From: Chitinophaga pinensis
Lineage (GTDB): Bacteria; Bacteroidota; Bacteroidia; Chitinophagales; Chitinophagaceae
NCBI GenBank assembly: GCA_945897185.1
Contig: CAMDFC010000016.1
Span: 1 to 35,011, forward strand
Direction of reading: 5' to 3'
Length of the DNA: 35,011 nucleotides
The notes below the pieces were generated by a model. It did no database searches, was not told the DNA's origin, and saw only the letters and a program-made list of their open reading frames with translations. How positions within the stretch are numbered: the stretch's first letter is position 1; every line of letters starts with the position of its first letter. Of this stretch, positions 5,634-26,821 are shown in pieces. The position numbers and the translations under genes were made by a program.

Positions 5634-6590
5634 TTATTCTTTATTGTTTATTCTCTTCAACATCTCCCACATTTCAGGAATTCTTTTAATCCAAACCAGT
5701 TCTCTTTTTTTTGTATTCGCCTCTTCAGCAGGATAACCAAAATAGACCTTGCCGCCTACTAAACTAGATGGGACACCCGATTTTGCCATAACTACTGCAT
5801 TTGCACCAATGGTTAATGTCTTGTTTACTGCAACTTGTCCCCACAGTATAACACCATCTTCAATCACCGTAGCGCCTGCAATACCAACTTGTGCTGCAAA
5901 TAGGCAGTTCTTTCCAACCACCACATCATGCCCAATATGAACCTTGTTGTCTAGTTTTGTTCCTTCACCAATGATGGTATCGTGTGTTACTCCCCTGTCA
6001 ATTGTACAACCTGCACCCAGTTCAACTTGGTTATGGAGTATTACCCTTCCGCAACTTTTCATTTTTTTATACCAAACTGGTCTGTTCTTTTTTGAGTTGT
6101 AATAAAAGGCATCTGATCCAATTACCGTACCAGATTCTATCACCACATTGTCTCCAAGTATACAGTGCGATAAAATAGTAACGTTTGGATGTATGGTACA
6201 GTTCTTACCAATAATTACATCTTCTCCAATAAACGTATTTGGTGCCAATACAGTTCCTTCTCCTATGGTTGCAGAAGGATGTATCATGGATGTTTGATGG
6301 TGAAAAGGGCGGAAGTGTTCTACGATTTTTTGGTAAGCCTCGAAAGGTTGTTCAACAATCAGTAAAGCCTTGTTGGGCGGGCATTCTGTAGATGTGTCAA
6401 TGATGATAAAACTGGCTAATGAGTCAATACATTTTTTGTAATATTTTGGATGGTCTACAAATACAAGATCACCTTCTTCTACTTTGTGAATTTCATTGAT
6501 ACCCAAACACAGTCCGTTTACATTGCCTTGAATTTTTGCATTGATTAATTCGGCAATCCACGTAACAGAAACAGGCGATGGAAATTTCAT
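5634..6590 (-). CDS. LpxD-family UDP-3-O-(3-hydroxyacyl)glucosamine N-acyltransferase
   Basis: LpxD adds the N-linked hydroxyacyl chain in lipid A synthesis. Residues 1-100 match the LpxD uridine-binding domain (WIAELINA, then the EEGDLVFVDHPKYY segment). Residues about 105-290 are a left-handed beta helix of hexapeptide repeats (IGKNCT, LGDNVV, IGEGTK and others). The HIGHDVVVG segment carries the histidine at the catalytic position of the family, followed by AAQVGIAG. At 318 residues it is somewhat shorter than the usual 340 or so, ending in one short helix. It stands apart from any lpxA, lpxB or lpxC gene, so it may be a second LpxD paralogue rather than the main enzyme. A -7 box lies just upstream. 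Confidence 0.82.
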   Translation of the reverse strand: MKFPSPVSVTWIAELINAKIQGNVNGLCLGINEIHKVEEGDLVFVDHPKYYKKCIDSLASFIIIDTSTECPPNKALLIVEQPFEAYQKIVEHFRPFHHQTSMIHPSATIGEGTVLAPNTFIGEDVIIGKNCTIHPNVTILSHCILGDNVVIESGTVIGSDAFYYNSKKNRPVWYKKMKSCGRVILHNQVELGAGCTIDRGVTHDTIIGEGTKLDNKVHIGHDVVVGKNCLFAAQVGIAGATVIEDGVILWGQVAVNKTLTIGANAVVMAKSGVPSSLVGGKVYFGYPAEEANTKKRELVWIKRIPEMWEMLKRINNKE

Positions 6591-6605
6591 ATTTGCTAAT
6601 TTTTA

Positions 6606-6613
6606 CAAAGATA
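6606..6613 (-). promoter_or_regulatory. -7 promoter box before the lpxD-like gene
   Basis: On the minus strand the bases read TATCTTTG, an exact TAnnTTTG match, ending 15 bases before the ATG at 6590. This predicts a leader of under about 12 bases. Confidence 0.55.
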
Positions 6614-6750
6614 GTGCTATGTGCACTTTGCAAATAACATGTATGTATTTGTAACAATTGTTGTGGTAATTAACATCTCAGCATAAAAGTGTGCATAAAA
6701 TAATATGGGAAAAATTTTCAGTTCATAAAATATATCTATAATATTGTGAA

Positions 6751-6822
6751 GGGAATTTATTCCCGGTACTTATTAACCCATCTATATATCAGCGTCCGGT
6801 TTCAACCGGACGCTATTTTTTT
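6751..6822 (+). ncRNA. Candidate small RNA or leader RNA with hairpin, shared motif and terminator
   Basis: Three elements lie in order. A perfect hairpin GGGAA-TTTA-TTCCC occupies 6751-6764. The motif GTACTTATTAACCCAT occupies 6766-6781. A GC-rich terminator hairpin with a run of seven T occupies 6791-6822. The same motif, with one base different, follows another hairpin at 21484-21499. A terminator with no plus-strand gene just upstream is most simply explained by a small RNA, or by a premature stop in the yicC leader. No promoter was confidently found. The orientation is inferred from the terminator alone. Confidence 0.35.
6791..6822 (+). terminator. Intrinsic terminator upstream of yicC
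   Basis: The arms AGCGTCCGG (6791-6799) and CCGGACGCT (6806-6814) pair perfectly over nine bases, with further possible T-A pairing in the loop. One A and then seven T (6816-6822) follow. This is a textbook Rho-independent terminator for plus-strand transcription. Confidence 0.75.
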
Positions 6823-6849
6823 ATACTTACATTGCACTAAATTTTATTT

Positions 6850-7725
6850 ATGCTAAGATCGATGACCGGTTATGGAAGAGCTGAGCGTTCCATCAACGAA
6901 AAGAATTTCCTAATTGAAATCCGTTCGCTTAATGGAAAGCAATTTGAACTTTTGTTGAAACTACCGCTTCAATTGAAACCTTTTGAATTCGAGATTAGAA
7001 GCCTGCTTTCAGAAAAATTAATTAGAGGAAGTGTTGAGTGTACTGTTTCTATAAAACAACATGGGGCTGCTAAGCCATCATCCATAAACCTAGACCTTGC
7101 AGCCTCTTATTTTAAACAATTAAAGTCATTGGCAGATCAACTAGAAGCCGACGATAGCCAATTGCTGGCTTCTATTCTTCGTTTGCCAGAGGTAGTGGCC
7201 AATTCAACTGATGTAATTGGAGACACTGAATGGCTTGTGTTTAAAGAGGTATTGCAAGAAGCCATGGTCATGATTAATAAACACAGAATGGATGAAGGCG
7301 CCGCATTGGAAAAAGAACTGTTGCTGAGAATTGCAAATATTGAAGAGAGTCAGAAAAAAGTAATTGCCTTAGACCCTTCTCGTAAGGTTAAAATCAGAGA
7401 GTCGATACTCAAGCTTTTAGATGAGCAAGTGGGTAAAGACAACGTAGACATGAATCGTTTTGAGCAGGAACTCATTTATTATATAGAAAAAATCGATCTT
7501 ACCGAAGAGCAGGTGAGGTTGACCAACCACTGCACTTATTTTAGGACACTCTTAAGTGAGCAAGAAATAGCCAAGGGTAGAAAGCTCTCTTTCCTGTTAC
7601 AAGAAATTGGTCGTGAAATCAACACAACTGGCTCAAAAGCCTATGATGCTGAAATTCAGAAATCAGTGGTGGAGATGAAAGACGAACTTGAAAAAGCAAA
7701 AGAACAAGTGCTGAACATTCTTTGA
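6850..7725 (+). CDS. yicC: YicC/YloC family endoribonuclease
   Basis: The 291-residue protein begins MLRSMTGYGRAE, the family hallmark, and has the expected length. The C-terminal half carries the second conserved block (DVNRFEQELIYY-like, here with DMNRFEQE, then FLLQEIGREINTTGSKA). Members of this family are metal-dependent endoribonucleases implicated in RNA turnover. In many bacteria yicC is followed by gmk (guanylate kinase), but here the next gene is gldH, 47 bases on and with its own promoter. A terminator lies 28 bases upstream, so yicC expression either needs a promoter in that short gap or depends on readthrough. Confidence 0.93.
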   Translation: MLRSMTGYGRAERSINEKNFLIEIRSLNGKQFELLLKLPLQLKPFEFEIRSLLSEKLIRGSVECTVSIKQHGAAKPSSINLDLAASYFKQLKSLADQLEADDSQLLASILRLPEVVANSTDVIGDTEWLVFKEVLQEAMVMINKHRMDEGAALEKELLLRIANIEESQKKVIALDPSRKVKIRESILKLLDEQVGKDNVDMNRFEQELIYYIEKIDLTEEQVRLTNHCTYFRTLLSEQEIAKGRKLSFLLQEIGREINTTGSKAYDAEIQKSVVEMKDELEKAKEQVLNIL

Positions 7726-19885: not shown

Positions 19886-21250
19886 CTATTTGAAAATACT
19901 TCTGTAGACCTCCTCAACCAAAGCAACAGAGATGGTTTTAATACCTTTGTGTGGTTCTGATTTTCTATTGTATTTGCTGATCACAATGCTTTCGAAGCCC
20001 AGCTTTTCCGCTTCAGATATCCTTTGGTCAACTCGATTAACGGCCCTGATCTCCCCGCTGAGTCCAATTTCTCCTGCAAAACAGATTTTTTGGGAAAGTG
20101 GAATGTCTTCATACGAGCTTAAAAGCGCAAAAACCATAGCCAGGTCAATTGCTGGATCTTCAATTTTTAATCCACCCGCAATGTTTACAAAAACATCTTT
20201 CGTGCCAAAATGAAAGCCCCCTCTTTTTTCAAGTACTGCCAAAAGCAATTGCAATCTTCTCAAATCAAAACCACTAGCTGTTCGTTGTGGTGTTCCATAT
20301 ACCGAAGGTGTTACCAATGCTTGTACTTCTATTAATAATGGACGAAGTCCTTCCATGGTTGCACCAATTGCAATACCACTGAGTTGTTCTTCTTTTTGGT
20401 TAATTAAAATATCTGAAGGATTGGTTACTGGTTTCATACCGGTACCTGTCATTTCATAAATACCCAATTCTGCTGTTGATCCAAATCTGTTTTTTGTGGT
20501 TCTTAAAATTCGATACGCATAATGTTGGTCACCCTCAAATTGCAACACGGTATCTACCATGTGTTCTAATAATTTTGGACCAGCAATACTTCCATCTTTT
20601 GTGATATGTCCAATTAAAAAAACAGGGGTCTGTGTTTCTTTAGCATAGCGTTGAAATTCAGCAGTACATTCCCTGATTTGAGAAATAGTTCCAGGTGATG
20701 AATCGATGTAAGGGGATTGAATCGTTTGTATCGAATCGATGATCACCAAATCAGGTTTTATTTTTTTTATCTCTTGAAACACGCTCTGGGTGGATGTTTC
20801 AGTGAGTATATAAAACTCATCATGTTGGATGTTAATGCGATTTGCTCTCATCTTAATTTGCTGTTCACTTTCCTCACCACTTACGTACAAGATTTTTAAA
20901 TCGTGTAACATCAATGCATCTTGTAGAAAGAGGGTCGATTTTCCTATACCGGGTTCACCAGCCACAAGCACCAAACTTCCACGTACAATTCCACCACCCA
21001 AAACACGATTTAGTTCTTCATCTTTAGTAATGATGCGCTGCTTTTCTTCTGAAACAACTTCATGCAAAGCAATACTCTTGTTGTTGCCCTGTTGATGTTC
21101 TTTCCAACTTTCTTTAGAGCCCAGTTGTTCTTTGTGAATGATTTCTTCGGTGAATGAATTCCATTCATGGCAAGCAGGACATTTACCTGCCCATTTTGCA
21201 GATTCATATCCACACTGTTTACAGAAAAATGCTTTTTTAATTTTGCTCAT
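19886..21250 (-). CDS. radA: DNA repair protein RadA (Sms)
   Basis: RadA is a DnaB-like hexameric helicase that drives branch migration in recombination. The 454-residue protein has the N-terminal zinc finger (Cys10, Cys13, Cys24, Cys27), Walker A GEPGIGKST, Walker B region LVIIDSIQT, the RadA-specific KNRFG motif (TTKNRFGS), and a Lon-protease-like C-terminal domain with GEIGLSGEIRAV. The start at 21250 (MSKIKKAFFC) puts the zinc finger at its usual position. An in-frame ATG at 21358 would add 36 low-complexity residues encoded by repeat-like intergenic DNA and is rejected. radA leads the run radA-comF, with six bases between the stop of one and the start of the next. Confidence 0.95.
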   Translation of the reverse strand: MSKIKKAFFCKQCGYESAKWAGKCPACHEWNSFTEEIIHKEQLGSKESWKEHQQGNNKSIALHEVVSEEKQRIITKDEELNRVLGGGIVRGSLVLVAGEPGIGKSTLFLQDALMLHDLKILYVSGEESEQQIKMRANRINIQHDEFYILTETSTQSVFQEIKKIKPDLVIIDSIQTIQSPYIDSSPGTISQIRECTAEFQRYAKETQTPVFLIGHITKDGSIAGPKLLEHMVDTVLQFEGDQHYAYRILRTTKNRFGSTAELGIYEMTGTGMKPVTNPSDILINQKEEQLSGIAIGATMEGLRPLLIEVQALVTPSVYGTPQRTASGFDLRRLQLLLAVLEKRGGFHFGTKDVFVNIAGGLKIEDPAIDLAMVFALLSSYEDIPLSQKICFAGEIGLSGEIRAVNRVDQRISEAEKLGFESIVISKYNRKSEPHKGIKTISVALVEEVYRSIFK

Positions 21251-21404
21251 TAAGTGAAAGTAAACATCATTGATGTAATGATAAAGAGAATTACAACTGA
21301 TGTGTTGTGTATTAATACTTGAGTCTGGTGTTGTGAGTTGTGGGTTAGTCAATTTCAAAAATTATAGTATGTTATTCTTCGAAGTACATTATAAAAACAT
21401 ACAA

Positions 21405-21432
21405 CGCATAACGCATAACCTATAACCCATAA
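21405..21432. repeat. Heptamer tandem repeat
   Basis: Four consecutive heptamers read CGCATAA, CGCATAA, CCTATAA, CCCATAA. The first two are identical and the others differ by one or two bases. There is no spacer structure, so it is not a CRISPR. Confidence 0.7.
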
Positions 21433-21458
21433 CTTCTTTGAACGCCTACAAAAACCAA

Positions 21459-21499
21459 AGGGCCAGCAAAAGCCGACCCTTCAGTACTTACTAACCCAT
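21459..21499. other. Hairpin plus 16-base motif shared with 6751-6781
   Basis: An imperfect hairpin (AGGGCCAGC, loop AAAA, GCCGACCCT; seven of nine pairs) occupies 21459-21480. It is followed within four bases by GTACTTACTAACCCAT at 21484-21499. The motif differs by one base from that at 6766-6781, which also follows a hairpin ending in CCC. Strand is unknown. Confidence 0.4.
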
Positions 21500-21797
21500 T
21501 AAATTCTCCCACTAAATTACAAATTGAAACCACACTTCAAAATTAATTTTTAAACCTGTTGATAACTTTTCAATATCCTGCTCCAGCGCATATGTTTTTG
21601 AATTAGAATATATTTTTTGTGTAAATAATTATATATCAATTAGTTGTAAATTTTCTGTTTATACTTTGGGAGAAGTGCCAACTCCGCTGGTTTAACAAAT
21701 TTACGCTATATGGGGTATTTTTTATTTCAAAGGGGGTTTGGCTTCAGGCACATTGTTTATGCCTTTTATTAAATAACTGTTGATGTATTTTTAACAA

Positions 21798-21871: not shown

Positions 21872-24800
21872 ATGAGAAAACTTACACTGTTCATGTGCTG
21901 TTTGCTTTTTGCAATACCAGGGGTATTTGCGCAAACAGTAGTCAAGGGAAAGGTATCGGATGCCGATGGCTCTCCTTTGTCTGGTGTATCAATCAAAGTG
22001 GCTGGTTCCCAAACGGGCACCACATCAGCTGCTGATGGTACATTTTCGCTTTCTGTTAAGGACCTTAACACTGCGTTAGAGGTTTCTTACATTGGGTACG
22101 ATCCTACTAAGGTTCGTTCCGGATCAAATCTTTCAAACATTCAGCTTAAGTCTTCCACTACTGGTTTGCAGGAGGTGGTTGTAACAGCGCAAGGTATCCG
22201 CAGGGAGAAAAAAGCCCTGGGTTATGCAGTTGCTACTGTTGACAAAAAGGCACTTGAGCTCCGTCCTGATGGCGACGTTGTTCGTCTATTGGCCGGTAAG
22301 GCTCCTGGTGTTGACATTCTTAACGCGAGTGGTATGTCAGGTTCTGGTACCAACATCGTTATCCGTGGTGTAAACACCATTAGTGGTAGCTCTACTCCGC
22401 TTTTCATTGTGGATGGTGTACCTTTCGATGCATCTACCAACAACCAGGCCAGCTTCGTTTATGGTAACACCACTTCAAGCCGTTTCTTGGATCTAGATCC
22501 AAACAGCATTGAGAACATCAGTGTTTTGAAAGGGTTGAGTGCAACTACACTTTATGGTGAATTAGGCCGTAATGGTGTGGTAATGGTAACTACCAAGAAT
22601 GGTGCAACACGCAAGTCGAACAAGAAAATGGAAGTAACTGTTTCACAATCTTTGTTCCAAAATACGGTTGCCAACCTTCCTGACTACCAATATTCATATG
22701 GTGGTGGTTTCGACCAATCAGTAGGTTTTGCTTTCTTCAGTAACTGGGGAGCAAAATTCAAGGATTCTCCTGGTCCATACGATTCAGTAAACCATCCTTA
22801 TAATACTGCTGCACTTGCTGCTGCTTTCCCGCAGTTTCAGGGTAAGAAAGTTCCATTTAAGCCTATCCGTGACAACGTAAAGAATTTCTTCAACACGGGT
22901 TTGATTAAAACTACTTCAGTTGGTGTGTCCAGCTCAAGCGGAAATGGTTCAAGTTTTAACGCGAACTATACGTATATGGATGATGAAGGCTTTACCCCAG
23001 GTAACCGCCTTATCAAGAATACTTTTGGATTGGGTGGTACTGCAAAGTTGAGTAATAAGTTTACCGTAAATGGTACTTTCAACTATGCTATCACTGATTT
23101 CAAAGCGCCTCCAACAGCTACTGGTTTCGGTTCGAACCCTTCAGCATCTTCGGTTTTCGGTAACCTTCTTTATACACCGATTGCGGTTGATCTTTTTGGT
23201 TTACCATACGAGAACCCATTAGATAAAGGTTCTGTTTACTATCGCCCAAGTAATGATATTCAGCATCCAATATGGACTGTTAAGAATTCATTTACTGGTC
23301 AGAAAATCAACAGGATTTTTGGAAACATGGCAATTAAATACGACATAGCCAAGAACATGAACATTATGTATCGTGTGGGTTATGATCAATATAGCGACTT
23401 TAACTTTTATTCTCAGAATAAAGGTGGTGTAGTTGGTGGTAACGACTTCCAATTGGGTTTCCACAGAACGGTTGCAGGAGCTAACATGATCTGGGATCAT
23501 TCATTGCTTTACAACTGGCAAGCAGAGATCAACTCTGATTGGAGATTGAATGTAGATGCGGGTTTGAACTCACAAGACAGGAATTATGAGCAAATCGGAC
23601 AGCGTTCAACTCAACAGCTTGTATATGGTCTTTTTGATCATGACAACTTCATTATTCATGACAACAACACAGAAGATGGCGGACGTATTGACTTCAAGTC
23701 TAGGTTCCTTTCTTTGGGTGCATTTGCACAAGGTTTGTTGAGCTACAAAGAATACTTGTATTTCACTATAGGTGGAAGAAACAGCTGGTCTTCAAACTTG
23801 GAGCAGGCTAACCGTTCTATCTTTTATCCTTCATTCAGTGGATCATTTATTCCAACTTCTGCATTCGAGTCACTTCAGAATAACAATGTGTTGAATTATT
23901 TGAAATTACGTGCTGGTTACTCAACAAGTGCGAACTTTGGTTCTCCTTATGCAACACGTCCTATTCTTAGTATCAATACCAACCAGTTTGTTGATCGTGG
24001 TGCAAACATTTATAACTCAAACAGCATCTCTAACCGTCTTCCAAATCCAAATTTGAGACCAGAGTTGTTGCAAGAGTTTGAAGTTGGATTTGAGGGTAAG
24101 TTGTTCAACAACAGAATGAATGTTGATTTCACTTACTACAATAGAAATTCAAAAGACCAGATCCTTTCACGTGAATTGGATCCTTCTACAGGATTTACTG
24201 TTACTTCAATCAACGCAGGTGCTGTTCGTAACCAAGGTATCGAGCTTCAACTCGGATACAATGTTATCCGTAACAAAGATTGGAACTGGCAGGTGGATGT
24301 TAACTACTTCCAAAACAGGAACAAGGTTACGCTTCCTTCAGACATCAAGCAGATTGTTATCGATGGTTTCAGCAACGAAGGTTTGTTTGCAATCAACGGA
24401 CTACCATTGGGTGTAATCCAAGGTTCTTACTCTAAGAGAGATACTGGTTCAACAGCTGTTAACGCAAAACCAACTGGTAAGCGTATTGTTGACAACAATG
24501 GTAACTACGTTTCTTCAAATCAATTGGGAATCATTGGTGATCCAAATCCAGATTTCAAATTGACTGGTATCAGTACTTTAAGCTACAAAGGAATTACCTT
24601 CCGTATGCAGTGGGATTATACACAAGGTGGAGACATGTTGGCGTATACTCCAGGTACAGTAGTTGGTCGTGGTTTGTCAGCGGATACTGATTTTGATCGT
24701 ACACTTCCTTTGATCCTACCAGGTGTGAAGACAGATGGTACGCCAAACGATATCCAGATCAGTGCAAGTGCTACATTCTTCAACAACCTTTCTGGTTTCT

Positions 24801-25084
24801 TTGGGGTATCTGATATCATCACTTATGATGCAACAATGGTGAGATTGAGAGAAGCATCTCTTTCTTATTCTTTGCCATCTTCAGTGTTGACTAAGACTCC
24901 ATTTGGATCATTGTCAATTACCTTATCTGGTCAAAACCTTTGGTACAATGCGCCTAACTTCCCTAAGTATGTAAATTTCGATCCAGAAACTTCTTCTTTG
25001 GGTGTTAGTAACGTACGTGGTCTGGAATATCTTTCAGGTCCTACCTCTAGGCGTCTTGGCGTCAGCGTAAGGGTTACTTTCTAA
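21872..25084 (+). CDS. SusC/RagA-family TonB-linked outer-membrane transporter
   Basis: The 1070-residue protein imports a large ligand through the outer membrane using TonB energy. It has a signal peptide (residues 1-20, cut before QTVVKG), then a carboxypeptidase-regulatory-like beta domain (about 22-100), a SusC plug domain with VIRGVNTISGSSTPLFIVDG and the typical end LYGELGRNGVVMVTTKNG (more often YGSRAANGV in the family), and a long beta-barrel ending in the aromatic VRVTF needed for barrel assembly. It pairs with the following SusD gene 12 bases away. No sigma/anti-sigma pair, hybrid sensor or glycoside hydrolase is adjacent, so the ligand is unknown and need not be a glycan. Confidence 0.96.
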   Translation: MRKLTLFMCCLLFAIPGVFAQTVVKGKVSDADGSPLSGVSIKVAGSQTGTTSAADGTFSLSVKDLNTALEVSYIGYDPTKVRSGSNLSNIQLKSSTTGLQEVVVTAQGIRREKKALGYAVATVDKKALELRPDGDVVRLLAGKAPGVDILNASGMSGSGTNIVIRGVNTISGSSTPLFIVDGVPFDASTNNQASFVYGNTTSSRFLDLDPNSIENISVLKGLSATTLYGELGRNGVVMVTTKNGATRKSNKKMEVTVSQSLFQNTVANLPDYQYSYGGGFDQSVGFAFFSNWGAKFKDSPGPYDSVNHPYNTAALAAAFPQFQGKKVPFKPIRDNVKNFFNTGLIKTTSVGVSSSSGNGSSFNANYTYMDDEGFTPGNRLIKNTFGLGGTAKLSNKFTVNGTFNYAITDFKAPPTATGFGSNPSASSVFGNLLYTPIAVDLFGLPYENPLDKGSVYYRPSNDIQHPIWTVKNSFTGQKINRIFGNMAIKYDIAKNMNIMYRVGYDQYSDFNFYSQNKGGVVGGNDFQLGFHRTVAGANMIWDHSLLYNWQAEINSDWRLNVDAGLNSQDRNYEQIGQRSTQQLVYGLFDHDNFIIHDNNTEDGGRIDFKSRFLSLGAFAQGLLSYKEYLYFTIGGRNSWSSNLEQANRSIFYPSFSGSFIPTSAFESLQNNNVLNYLKLRAGYSTSANFGSPYATRPILSINTNQFVDRGANIYNSNSISNRLPNPNLRPELLQEFEVGFEGKLFNNRMNVDFTYYNRNSKDQILSRELDPSTGFTVTSINAGAVRNQGIELQLGYNVIRNKDWNWQVDVNYFQNRNKVTLPSDIKQIVIDGFSNEGLFAINGLPLGVIQGSYSKRDTGSTAVNAKPTGKRIVDNNGNYVSSNQLGIIGDPNPDFKLTGISTLSYKGITFRMQWDYTQGGDMLAYTPGTVVGRGLSADTDFDRTLPLILPGVKTDGTPNDIQISASATFFNNLSGFFGVSDIITYDATMVRLREASLSYSLPSSVLTKTPFGSLSITLSGQNLWYNAPNFPKYVNFDPETSSLGVSNVRGLEYLSGPTSRRLGVSVRVTF

Positions 25085-25096
25085 TCTTAAAAACAG

Positions 25097-26821
25097 ATGA
25101 ACATGACACTTAAGAAAATATACATCTTCGCACTCTCGGTGATCCTTTTGGGAAGCTGTGCCAAACAACTCGATGAGTTGTTGGTCAACCCTAACGGACC
25201 TACACCGGAAAGTGCCAACGTAGATCTTTACCTCCCAGTTGTTCAAAGCAGCTTTGTAGGTGTATTTAGCTCAGCCTCCTCTTTTGGTCGTGAGTTGACC
25301 CGTCAAACTGTAATGTACGGACCAACTTATAACGCGGCTTATTCTCCTAACTCCTTTGATGGAGTATGGAGTTCTGCTTATACCGGCGTATTTAAGCACG
25401 CTAACATTTTGATTCCAGTTGCTATTTCCCAAAAGAAGTATGTTCAAGCTGGTATGGCTAAAGTAATGAAGGCTTACACCATGATGACGCTTGTCGATAT
25501 GTTTGGTGATATCCCGTACACTGAGGCAAACTTGGGTATTGATAACACTAACCCTGGAGTAACCAAAGGCGCAGAAGTTTATGCTGCTGCCATTAAGTTG
25601 CTACAGGAAGTGAGTGATACACTTGATCTTGTAGCTAGTGGGTCATTGGCACACGGACCATATCCTGGCTTCTTGGATAATTTCTATGGTGTAACAAACG
25701 CAGCAGGAGCAAGACGTTGGGCCACTCAAGCTAAGCTTTTGATGATCCGCGCATACATGACCACTCGTTTGGCTGATTCAGGTGCTAAAGCTAAAATTGA
25801 AGCCTTGCTTTCAAACGCATTCGTTGTTGCTTCTTTGACTGGTACAACACAAGATTTTGAATTCAAGTATTCAAGTAAGCAAGCTAACCCGAACAGTCGT
25901 CACCCATCATATAATGGAAATTATAATGGTAATGGTACAACTTCAGGTTCTGCTGGTGATTATATTGGTACGCATTTCCTTTGGACAATTGCAGTAGAAA
26001 AAGGTAATTTCAGCAATACAGTAGCAAACGACAGGTCTGATCCAAGAACACGTTACTATTTATACCGTCAAACTACTAACCAGTCTGGTGTTAATGAGTC
26101 ATCGGTTTCATGTAGCGTTGCTGCTCCTCCTGCAAACTTTACTCCTACAATGCCTTTCTGTTTGATTGGATTTGCAGGATTCTGGGGTAGAGATCATGGA
26201 GACAACTCTGGTATTCCTCCAGATGGTAACTTCAGAACTACTTGGGGTATTTATCCTGCAGGTGGTGAAATGGATTTGAACCAAGGTACAAGAGTTTCAT
26301 TGAATAGAGGTGGTCAGGGAGCTGGTATCCAGCCTATCTGGCAAGCTTCCTTCTCTGAGTTCTTGAGAGCTGAAGCGGTACTTACATTAGGAATCGCAGG
26401 TGATGCAAGGGCATTCTTGGAAGCTGGAGTTAGAAAGTCAATTTCTAAAGTAATTGGATTCCCTGCAACCATTGCTTATGTTGTTAATCCAGCCGTAGTT
26501 CCTTCTTCAGCTACAATCGATGCTTATGTTGCAAAAGTATTGGCAAGATATGATGCAGAATCAACCAATTCTGCTAGGTTGAATGTTGTAATGAAAGAAT
26601 GGTACATCGCTCTTTGGGGCAATGGTGCTGATGCAAACAACAATTATCGTCGTACTGGTATGCCGAATAATTTCCAGTTTGCCAAGTTGCCAGATCCAGG
26701 ATCATATATTCGTTCTTTCTTGTATCCGTCTAGTTATATCAACTTGAATAAGAATGCAGGTGCACAGAATACTCCTGATAAGAAAGTATTCTGGGATACA
26801 AACCCAGCAGTATTAAAATAA
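25097..26821 (+). CDS. SusD/RagB-like nutrient-binding outer-membrane lipoprotein
   Basis: This is a 574-residue surface lipoprotein acting as the ligand-binding lid of the preceding SusC. The lipobox is LLGSC and the mature protein starts at Cys21. The text LVNPNGPTPESA after it and the helical region TMMTLVDMFGDIPYTEA are typical of the SusD-like group often annotated as SusD/RagB nutrient-binding lipoprotein (SusD-like_2) rather than classical SusD. The C terminus has the expected RRTGMP and PSSYINLN-type segments. The start is ambiguous between ATG 25097 and ATG 25103 (MNMTLKK). It is spaced 12 bases after susC and 14 before the next gene, consistent with one transcript. Confidence 0.93.
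   Translation: MNMTLKKIYIFALSVILLGSCAKQLDELLVNPNGPTPESANVDLYLPVVQSSFVGVFSSASSFGRELTRQTVMYGPTYNAAYSPNSFDGVWSSAYTGVFKHANILIPVAISQKKYVQAGMAKVMKAYTMMTLVDMFGDIPYTEANLGIDNTNPGVTKGAEVYAAAIKLLQEVSDTLDLVASGSLAHGPYPGFLDNFYGVTNAAGARRWATQAKLLMIRAYMTTRLADSGAKAKIEALLSNAFVVASLTGTTQDFEFKYSSKQANPNSRHPSYNGNYNGNGTTSGSAGDYIGTHFLWTIAVEKGNFSNTVANDRSDPRTRYYLYRQTTNQSGVNESSVSCSVAAPPANFTPTMPFCLIGFAGFWGRDHGDNSGIPPDGNFRTTWGIYPAGGEMDLNQGTRVSLNRGGQGAGIQPIWQASFSEFLRAEAVLTLGIAGDARAFLEAGVRKSISKVIGFPATIAYVVNPAVVPSSATIDAYVAKVLARYDAESTNSARLNVVMKEWYIALWGNGADANNNYRRTGMPNNFQFAKLPDPGSYIRSFLYPSSYINLNKNAGAQNTPDKKVFWDTNPAVLK

Follow-up and report, generated by a model that had tools for sequence, protein, structure and literature searches.

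A pair of predicted small RNAs with complementary seeds, one of them usually a radA leader, in the family Chitinophagaceae

The window, a 35,011-nucleotide stretch of Chitinophaga pinensis DNA (contig CAMDFC010000016.1), holds two predicted small RNA genes, here named RNA1 and RNA2, whose products would be complementary over 15-16 nt. As judged from sequence, it is likely that the two are independently transcribed and that they base-pair in trans. Whether RNA2 acts as a sponge of RNA1, that is, as its leader-derived antagonist, is put at about even chances.

Results

Two sites of one 16-mer

The genome holding the window (on contig C16) comprises 2.29 Mb in 129 contigs. As a preliminary description of this DNA had it, two 16-mers, GTACTTATTAACCCAT at 6766-6781 and GTACTTACTAACCCAT at 21484-21499, differ by one mismatch. 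A 14-base hairpin at 6751-6764, with CCC at its 3' end, lies one base ahead of copy 1, and a hairpin at 21460-21479, with CCC at its plus-strand end, lies four bases ahead of copy 2. Both hairpins are found where that description saw them, but the second is the terminator of RNA2 and stands behind the motif on the minus strand. The idea that both copies form the same hairpin-plus-motif unit is not supported, as copy 2 is laid out on the opposite strand and belongs to a different RNA that would be able to pair with RNA1.

At up to one mismatch, GTACTTAYTAACCCAT occurs in only two places of the 2.29 Mb genome, and at up to two mismatches there is one extra place. Judged by the window only, the pair could be due to chance: 11 of 100 window shuffles gave two or more matches at up to three mismatches. 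It is the counts in relatives that take the pair beyond chance: at up to one mismatch, the motif was found in 68 places in 60 genomes, versus 11 for a reversed-pattern control. That two unrelated intergenic stretches resemble each other by chance, for which the window shuffles speak, is refuted by these counts and by family-wide model matches, with each RNA found in 90 of the 101 genera of the family sample; its probability is negligible.

Among the 37 genomes of the genus, including the present one, 25 have exactly two motif places, four have three, three have one, and five have none. The loci are also fixed. The neighbors of copy 1, lpxD and yicC, are kept in 31 of 31 loci, most of which were fetched via yicC and have motif places that agree with an independent motif search; radA is downstream on the RNA2 strand in all 31 copy-2 loci. 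A repeat family or mobile element is ruled out by two sites at fixed loci, here and in most genomes of the genus.

The genus has further near-copies of the motif (L040, L064, L066, and L076), in a number that is within the control expectation. Those at about position 1500 of L064, L066, and L076 adjoin terminator-like hairpins, with that of L066 at the 3' end of an apparent rpoD; these three near-copies may be chance or 3'-UTR decoys.

The predicted RNA1 gene

For the genus, 31 + 31 sites were lined up and 33 + 33 aligned, with none lost at extraction. The sites were found via the motif and extracted with patterns holding the motif and the RNA1 box, and the invariances given below are thus partly by construction. 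The covariance models built for the two RNAs, R1 and R2, include the promoter, while RNAalifold pairs inside the promoter were left out. The features of the copy-1 locus are as follows.

5634-6590, minus strand: lpxD, divergent and upstream of RNA1 (Pfam LpxD, Hexapep)
6739-6746, plus strand: predicted RNA1 -7 promoter box TAATATTG, present in 127 of the 128 genomes from which an RNA1/RNA2 pair was taken, partly by construction because RNA1 was extracted with patterns or models that included the box
6749-6823, plus strand: RNA1, predicted trans-encoded small RNA of ~75 nt with predicted ends (R1 covariance match 6739-6827, 107.5 bits)
6751-6764, plus strand: 5' hairpin GGGAATTTATTCCC of RNA1, double-sided changes in 2 of 4 modelled pairs among relatives
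6766-6781, plus strand: exposed motif GUACUUAUUAACCCAU of RNA1, complementary to RNA2
6791-6822, plus strand: predicted intrinsic terminator of RNA1, terminator-like in 128 of 128, double-sided changes in 8 of 9 modelled stem pairs
6850-7725, plus strand: yicC, downstream of RNA1 in this genus (Pfam YicC-like N and C domains)

On the plus strand, the order of elements at copy 1 is an invariant TAATATTGT, the 5' hairpin, the motif, a short A/U-rich stretch, and the terminator. The box TAATATTG has one mismatch to TAnnTTTG, which is described as the Bacteroidota -7 consensus (PMC7366714, PMC9723704). The terminator noted earlier at 6791-6822 consists of a G+C-rich inverted repeat (6791-6814) and seven consecutive T, the last of them at 6822. 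When the 128 real downstream stretches were put through an in-house terminator test, all were terminator-like, versus 55 of 640 shuffled ones. RNAalifold gave double-sided changes in 10 of 16 pairs of RNA1, 8 of them in the terminator and 2 in the 5' hairpin. As the simplest explanation of copy 1, a small RNA or leader with its end near 6822 had been proposed; the small RNA is supported by the conserved -7 box, by stem covariation, and by the model, which has matches in 248 of the 294 genomes of the family. The check proposed with it, a covariance model with further matches and covarying stems, was passed by each RNA separately. With its own promoter and terminator and a short non-coding transcript, all predicted, RNA1 has the features of a trans-encoded small RNA.

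The surroundings of the motif change in structure among relatives. In other genera the 5' hairpin is missing or is replaced by a hairpin around the motif; by a crude classification of minimum-energy folds, the motif goes with a 5' hairpin in 97 of 127 genomes and lies in a loop in 29. The mean unpaired probability of the motif is 0.84 versus 0.50 for the whole of RNA1 (127 genomes). Motif and -7 box are 11 to 24 nt apart, depending on the genome. Family-wide, lpxD is upstream of RNA1 in 34 of the 43 loci that matched the script's pattern (out of 62). In one genome of the genus (G021, locus L303), the motif and promoter of RNA1 have decayed with both hairpins kept, and RNA2 was not found; a joint loss of the RNA1 motif and RNA2 is possible there. 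A comparison of 6591-6860 with phage records gave short, weak matches only.

The predicted RNA2 gene and radA

The features of the copy-2 locus, all on the minus strand, are as follows.

19886-21250, minus strand: radA, downstream of RNA2 (Pfam AAA_25, rubredoxin-type Zn ribbon, and ChlI/Lon_C fit RadA)
21450-21507, minus strand: RNA2, predicted terminator-ended small RNA or radA leader of ~58 nt with predicted ends (R2 covariance match 21444-21552, 111.2 bits)
21450-21479, minus strand: predicted intrinsic terminator of RNA2 (hairpin 21460-21479, T-rich 21450-21459), double-sided changes in 8 of 10 stem pairs
21484-21499, minus strand: pairing stretch AUGGGUUAGUAAGUAC of RNA2, complementary to RNA1
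21487-21506, minus strand: 20-nt core GAATTTAATGGGTTAGTAAG of RNA2, invariant in 33 of 33 genus sequences, of which 31 sites were found by the motif itself and 2 via radA
21512-21519, minus strand: predicted RNA2 -7 promoter box TAATTTAG, with TAnnTTnG ahead of the motif in 124 of 128
21538-21542, minus strand: -33-like element (TTTTG on the minus strand), TTTT invariant and G in at least 90% of the 33 sequences of alignment A2

On the minus strand the order is TTTTG, TAATTTAG, an invariant GAATTTAATGGGTTAGTAAGT, and the terminator; TTTG is described as the -33 element (PMC7366714). The TAnnTTnG box lies exactly 12 nt from the motif in 94 of the 124 sequences and reads TAnnTTTG exactly in 23, and the 4 exceptions are sequences truncated at the box or behind it; a composition-shuffled control gave 11%. 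All 128 real RNA2 stretches passed the terminator test, versus 86 of 640 shuffled ones. According to RNAalifold, double-sided changes occur in 8 of 17 RNA2 pairs, all in the terminator. The mean unpaired probability of the pairing stretch is 0.69 versus 0.45 for the whole of RNA2.

Between radA and the RNA2 terminator, at 21400-21440 of the window, there is a repeat-like run of CATAACGCATAACCTATAACCCATAAC. Behind copy 2 on the plus strand (21872-26821) are genes for a TonB-dependent receptor (SusC-like) and a SusD-like protein according to Pfam, and SusC-like similarity near copy 2 is also seen in many, not all, relatives.

Of 255 distinct RNA2-like elements, a set that includes L112 and three viral loci, among which L499 is a chance match, 193 have radA downstream on the same strand, 46 have less than 700 nt downstream and are not judgeable, and 16 have room and no radA. 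Twelve of the 16 are host loci (L178, L201, L210, L312, L316, L320, L374, and L381-L385). Thus, RNA2 usually appears to be a radA leader, presumably sharing the radA transcript, and this is not obligatory, for it survives without radA. Its layout, lying in the leader of a protein gene and predicted to end before that gene, is that of a 5'-UTR-derived sponge.

The same distribution bears on the possibility that RNA2 is mainly a cis-acting transcription attenuator, with RNA1 as a trans small RNA that pairs with the radA leader and alters read-through. Besides the 193 elements followed by radA, three loci (L115, L175, and L176) speak for it: the radA start codon, as aligned there, lies 45 nt past GGGTTAGT and immediately behind the terminator, which leaves no room for a promoter between the two, so radA there must be read through RNA2. 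However, the 12 host loci have RNA2 and room with no radA behind it, nor was radA found downstream of RNA2 in the viral L497 and L498. There is also no overlap between the pairing stretch and the terminator stem. The terminators are strong; no conserved antiterminator pairing or alternative fold was noticed in an unsystematic look. Attenuation as the main role of RNA2 is considered improbable.

Complementarity and coevolution of the two RNAs

RNA1 carries GUACUUAYUAACCCAU and RNA2 its reverse complement. Coevolution of the two was followed in a sample of 133 pairs, from which four whose RNA2 match differs from the motif at more than 4 positions (G231, G249, G297, and G336) and G183, likely a false RNA2 match, were dropped. 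The resulting 128 pairs are a non-random set, with 31 from the genus and the rest made up of weak-scoring genomes and about one genome per genus among the strong matches listed; all were extracted by the motif or by models containing the motif and the -7 box. Left out of the 128 were six genomes with RNA1 but without an RNA2 sequence, and eleven with the reverse.

Over 15 positions of the 128 pairs, 1857 of 1920 cells are Watson-Crick, versus a shuffle mean of 1837 (0 of 5000 shuffles reached the real value), and 6 cells are double-compensated, versus 0.59 expected (0 of 5000 shuffles); all shuffles, here and below, are uncorrected for shared ancestry. When only the 22 distinct motif pairs are counted, there are 303 of 330 Watson-Crick cells versus 292.6 (0 of 5000 shuffles), 313 standard pairs versus 306.9 (8 of 5000), and 5 double-compensated cells versus 1.8 (65 of 5000). 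The double compensated changes fall at three positions in four lineages: position 1 in G005 with G019, G163, and G169, position 3 in G163, and position 13 in G214. The predicted duplexes of the motif region have a mean of -23.1 kcal/mol versus -7.5 for shuffled RNA2.

Apart from these, U.G is found at position 7 in twenty genomes of the genus, and exceptions to pairing are also seen. One to three mismatches occur in G002, G008, G015, G076, G087, G005, G019, G060, G114, G159, G182, G197, G282, and G313, including C.A at position 5 (G005 and G019), A.G at position 7 (G008 and G087), an unpaired position 14 (G060, G159, and G282), and single end mismatches in others. In genus g41 (G077, G174, G244, G292, and G331), both partners have changed at position 12 to a non-pairing A.A. 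In G313 (L368 and L387), CTTACTAACCCATAAATTC of RNA1 and GAATTTTATGGGTTAGTAAG of RNA2 are complementary past the usual 15 bases, into the RNA2 GAATTT. With the listed exceptions aside, RNA2 shows the specific complementarity to the seed of another small RNA that would be expected of a sponge.

Complementarity between two RNAs is at the same time identity of two DNA sites, and coevolution alone therefore also fits a DNA-binding protein shared by both loci. If the 16-mer were the site of one regulator protein, just inside two small RNA genes, two coevolving DNA copies would also be expected, and the motif does stand close behind both promoters. Against such a site, the motif is non-palindromic, with two sites per genome in most genomes of the genus, and each locus has its own terminator; the viral copies described below likewise unite a promoter-like box, the motif, and a terminator. 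The RNA reading is favored because the motif stays mostly single-stranded through changes of structure, because its distance to the RNA1 -7 box varies between 11 and 24 nt, and because each gene looks like a complete terminated unit. We regard the protein site as quite unlikely.

Most RNA2 sequences seen contain AUG GGU UAG UAA, which would allow a start-stop peptide (AUG GGU UAG) in RNA2 and a type I toxin-antitoxin-like pair with RNA1. This is contradicted by G214 (AUA), G076 (CUG), and G282 (AAG), where the AUG is replaced and the pair persists, in G214 with full complementarity. Moreover, the frame from the conserved AUG has two codons and gives neither a toxin nor a hydrophobic peptide, so that the mini-ORF is rejected as extremely improbable.

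Distribution in the family and beyond

In the 294 Chitinophagaceae genomes, RNA1 was found by R1 in 248, of which 247 have one match, and RNA2 by R2 in 253, of which 242 have one match. At the thresholds used, 227 genomes have both RNAs, 21 have RNA1 only, 26 have RNA2 only, and 20 have neither; some of the single-RNA genomes gain a weak second partner at laxer thresholds. The co-occurrence has a Fisher odds ratio of 8.3 (p 4e-8), a value that ignores shared ancestry. In an order-wide sample of 298 genomes, 85 of them from the family, RNA2 is present in 80 and RNA1 in 82 of the 85, and in the remaining 213, which come from the order's other families, the covariance models found neither RNA. 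The distance between the two loci is ~15 kb here and ~286 kb in G113. Pairing of RNAs from loci so far apart would be in trans.

The RNA2 core was found in at least 119 exact stretches among the genome contigs searched. Among the 80 matches listed, 79 have Bacteroidota titles, with many Chitinophagaceae genera (Chitinophaga, Sediminibacterium, Segetibacter, Niabella, Taibaiella, Puia, and Terrimonas), and one is a MAG titled Candidatus Nomurabacteria. In the latter (JADZEV010000003.1, L112:701-801), the exact RNA2 20-mer lies between dnaK-like and dnaJ-like genes, with a sigma70-like TTGACA element ahead and a terminator-like hairpin after it. Either so large a scan produced this match by chance, or a Patescibacteria genome carries an RNA2-like gene.

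The comparison with Rfam suggested at the outset yielded no family that reached threshold. Rfam 15 gave 0 matches in the window at the gathering threshold, and six loci searched at E up to 1 gave five matches, all sub-threshold; those nearest to both RNAs are atpB (26.9 of 37.4 bits) and trpB (30.7 of 59) in L218 and ctRNA_pGA1 (27.7 of 45) in L333. No tRNA was found in the window.

Viral look-alikes of RNA2

In the IMG/VR contig L497 (8833-8947), the exact 20-mer stands behind a perfect TAATTTTG and ahead of a hairpin and T-run. According to PHROGs, this contig has terminase genes and a tail-lysozyme/endolysin-like gene. L498 (2018-2131) and L500 (3075-3188), the latter with weak PHROG matches, have a second RNA2-like form in common, and the 4 kb contig L554 (313-365) has a third. 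These four give the best viral scores with R2 (E 4e-5 to 0.013, values that are biased because the contigs were chosen by the motif). Among 65 viral contigs with the 15-mer, the hairpin test is passed by L498, L500, L554, and L526, and misses L497, the stem of which is interrupted. L526 looks like coding sequence; a motif match can thus have a terminator-like hairpin by chance, and we take most of the 65 to be chance matches. The RNA2 region of L497 had no match in phage records.

No convincing RNA1 was found in the viral contigs. A first pattern gave no match, a looser one gave only L504, which was set aside as chance from its sequence context, and R1 on nine loci gave E-values of 0.32 or worse.

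Discussion

Proposed mechanism

In the circuit that we propose, RNA1 (~75 nt) would expose a single-stranded seed of 15-16 nt, placed in the loop of a hairpin or else flanked by the 5' hairpin and the terminator. RNA2 (~58 nt) would present an unstructured 5' stretch with the complement of the seed, followed by its terminator, and would mostly serve also as the 5' leader of radA. By titrating RNA1 or triggering its decay, RNA2 would antagonize it and release the putative mRNA targets of RNA1. Some phages may carry RNA2-like genes for the same antagonism.

The opposite assignment, with RNA2 as the regulator of mRNAs and RNA1 as its sponge, would suit the motif of RNA2 and its GAAUUUA extension, which are more invariant than the motif of RNA1, and a regulator is as conceivable a phage cargo as a decoy. 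Nothing decisive stands against it, as the direction of control is unreadable from sequence; it is held to be the less probable assignment, though one to be taken seriously. GAAUUUA is invariant in the genus, yet it is not complementary to RNA1 in most sequences seen, and RNA2 therefore probably does more than pair with RNA1.

Taken more widely, RNA1 and RNA2 as pairing partners may form a family-wide core circuit, captured by phages, of two dedicated, mutually complementary trans small RNAs, one doubling as a radA leader, in which the phage RNA2 would be an anti-RNA1 decoy that resets host regulation during infection. This wider picture is put forward tentatively.

Relation to known RNAs

By analogy, the nearest in kind are the IspZ and ChiZ sponges of E. 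coli; membership of those RNAs is not claimed. As described in PMC7815308, IspZ, the partner of OxyS, is like RNA2 a short RNA from a protein-gene leader with a likely intrinsic terminator that pairs with a trans-encoded small RNA. IspZ is experimentally shown and Hfq-bound, whereas RNA1 and RNA2 are predicted here from sequence. They also differ from IspZ/OxyS in belonging to another phylum, with no known sequence relation, in a complementary stretch that is long and almost perfect, in being conserved family-wide, in that some genera have lost the downstream gene, and in having viral look-alikes. ChiZ, ChiX, and chiP, in the account of the same source, share with RNA1 and RNA2 the reciprocal pairing of a leader fragment and a small RNA, with the leader gene itself maybe controlled; termination is Rho-dependent in ChiZ, in contrast to the predicted intrinsic terminator of RNA2 (PMC7815308). 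In Campylobacter, CJnc180 and CJnc190 are another case in which one small RNA antagonizes another; they are cis-encoded (PMC8687705), unlike RNA1 and RNA2, whose genes are ~15 kb or far more apart and have only the seed in common. The trans small RNAs of Bacteroides thetaiotaomicron (PMC7366714) are of the same phylum and promoter type and are trans-encoded, a likeness drawn without sequence comparison.

In the literature on small or regulatory RNAs of Chitinophagaceae and Chitinophaga, judged by title and the start of the abstract, no such circuit was found, and broader searches, including YicC together with small RNAs, found no such RNA at listing level. Most Bacteroidota are not known to have Hfq. 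The action of trans small RNAs in Bacteroides has barely been addressed, according to the discussion of PMC7366714. The pair occurs in 227 of 294 family genomes; its exact coordinates are at hand, together with seeds that complement each other, naturally occurring compensatory variants, and look-alikes in viral contigs. RNA1 and RNA2 thus offer a ready test of pairing between small RNAs beyond the Hfq world and of whether phages might interfere with it, and they may be an unrecognized switch of RNA against RNA.
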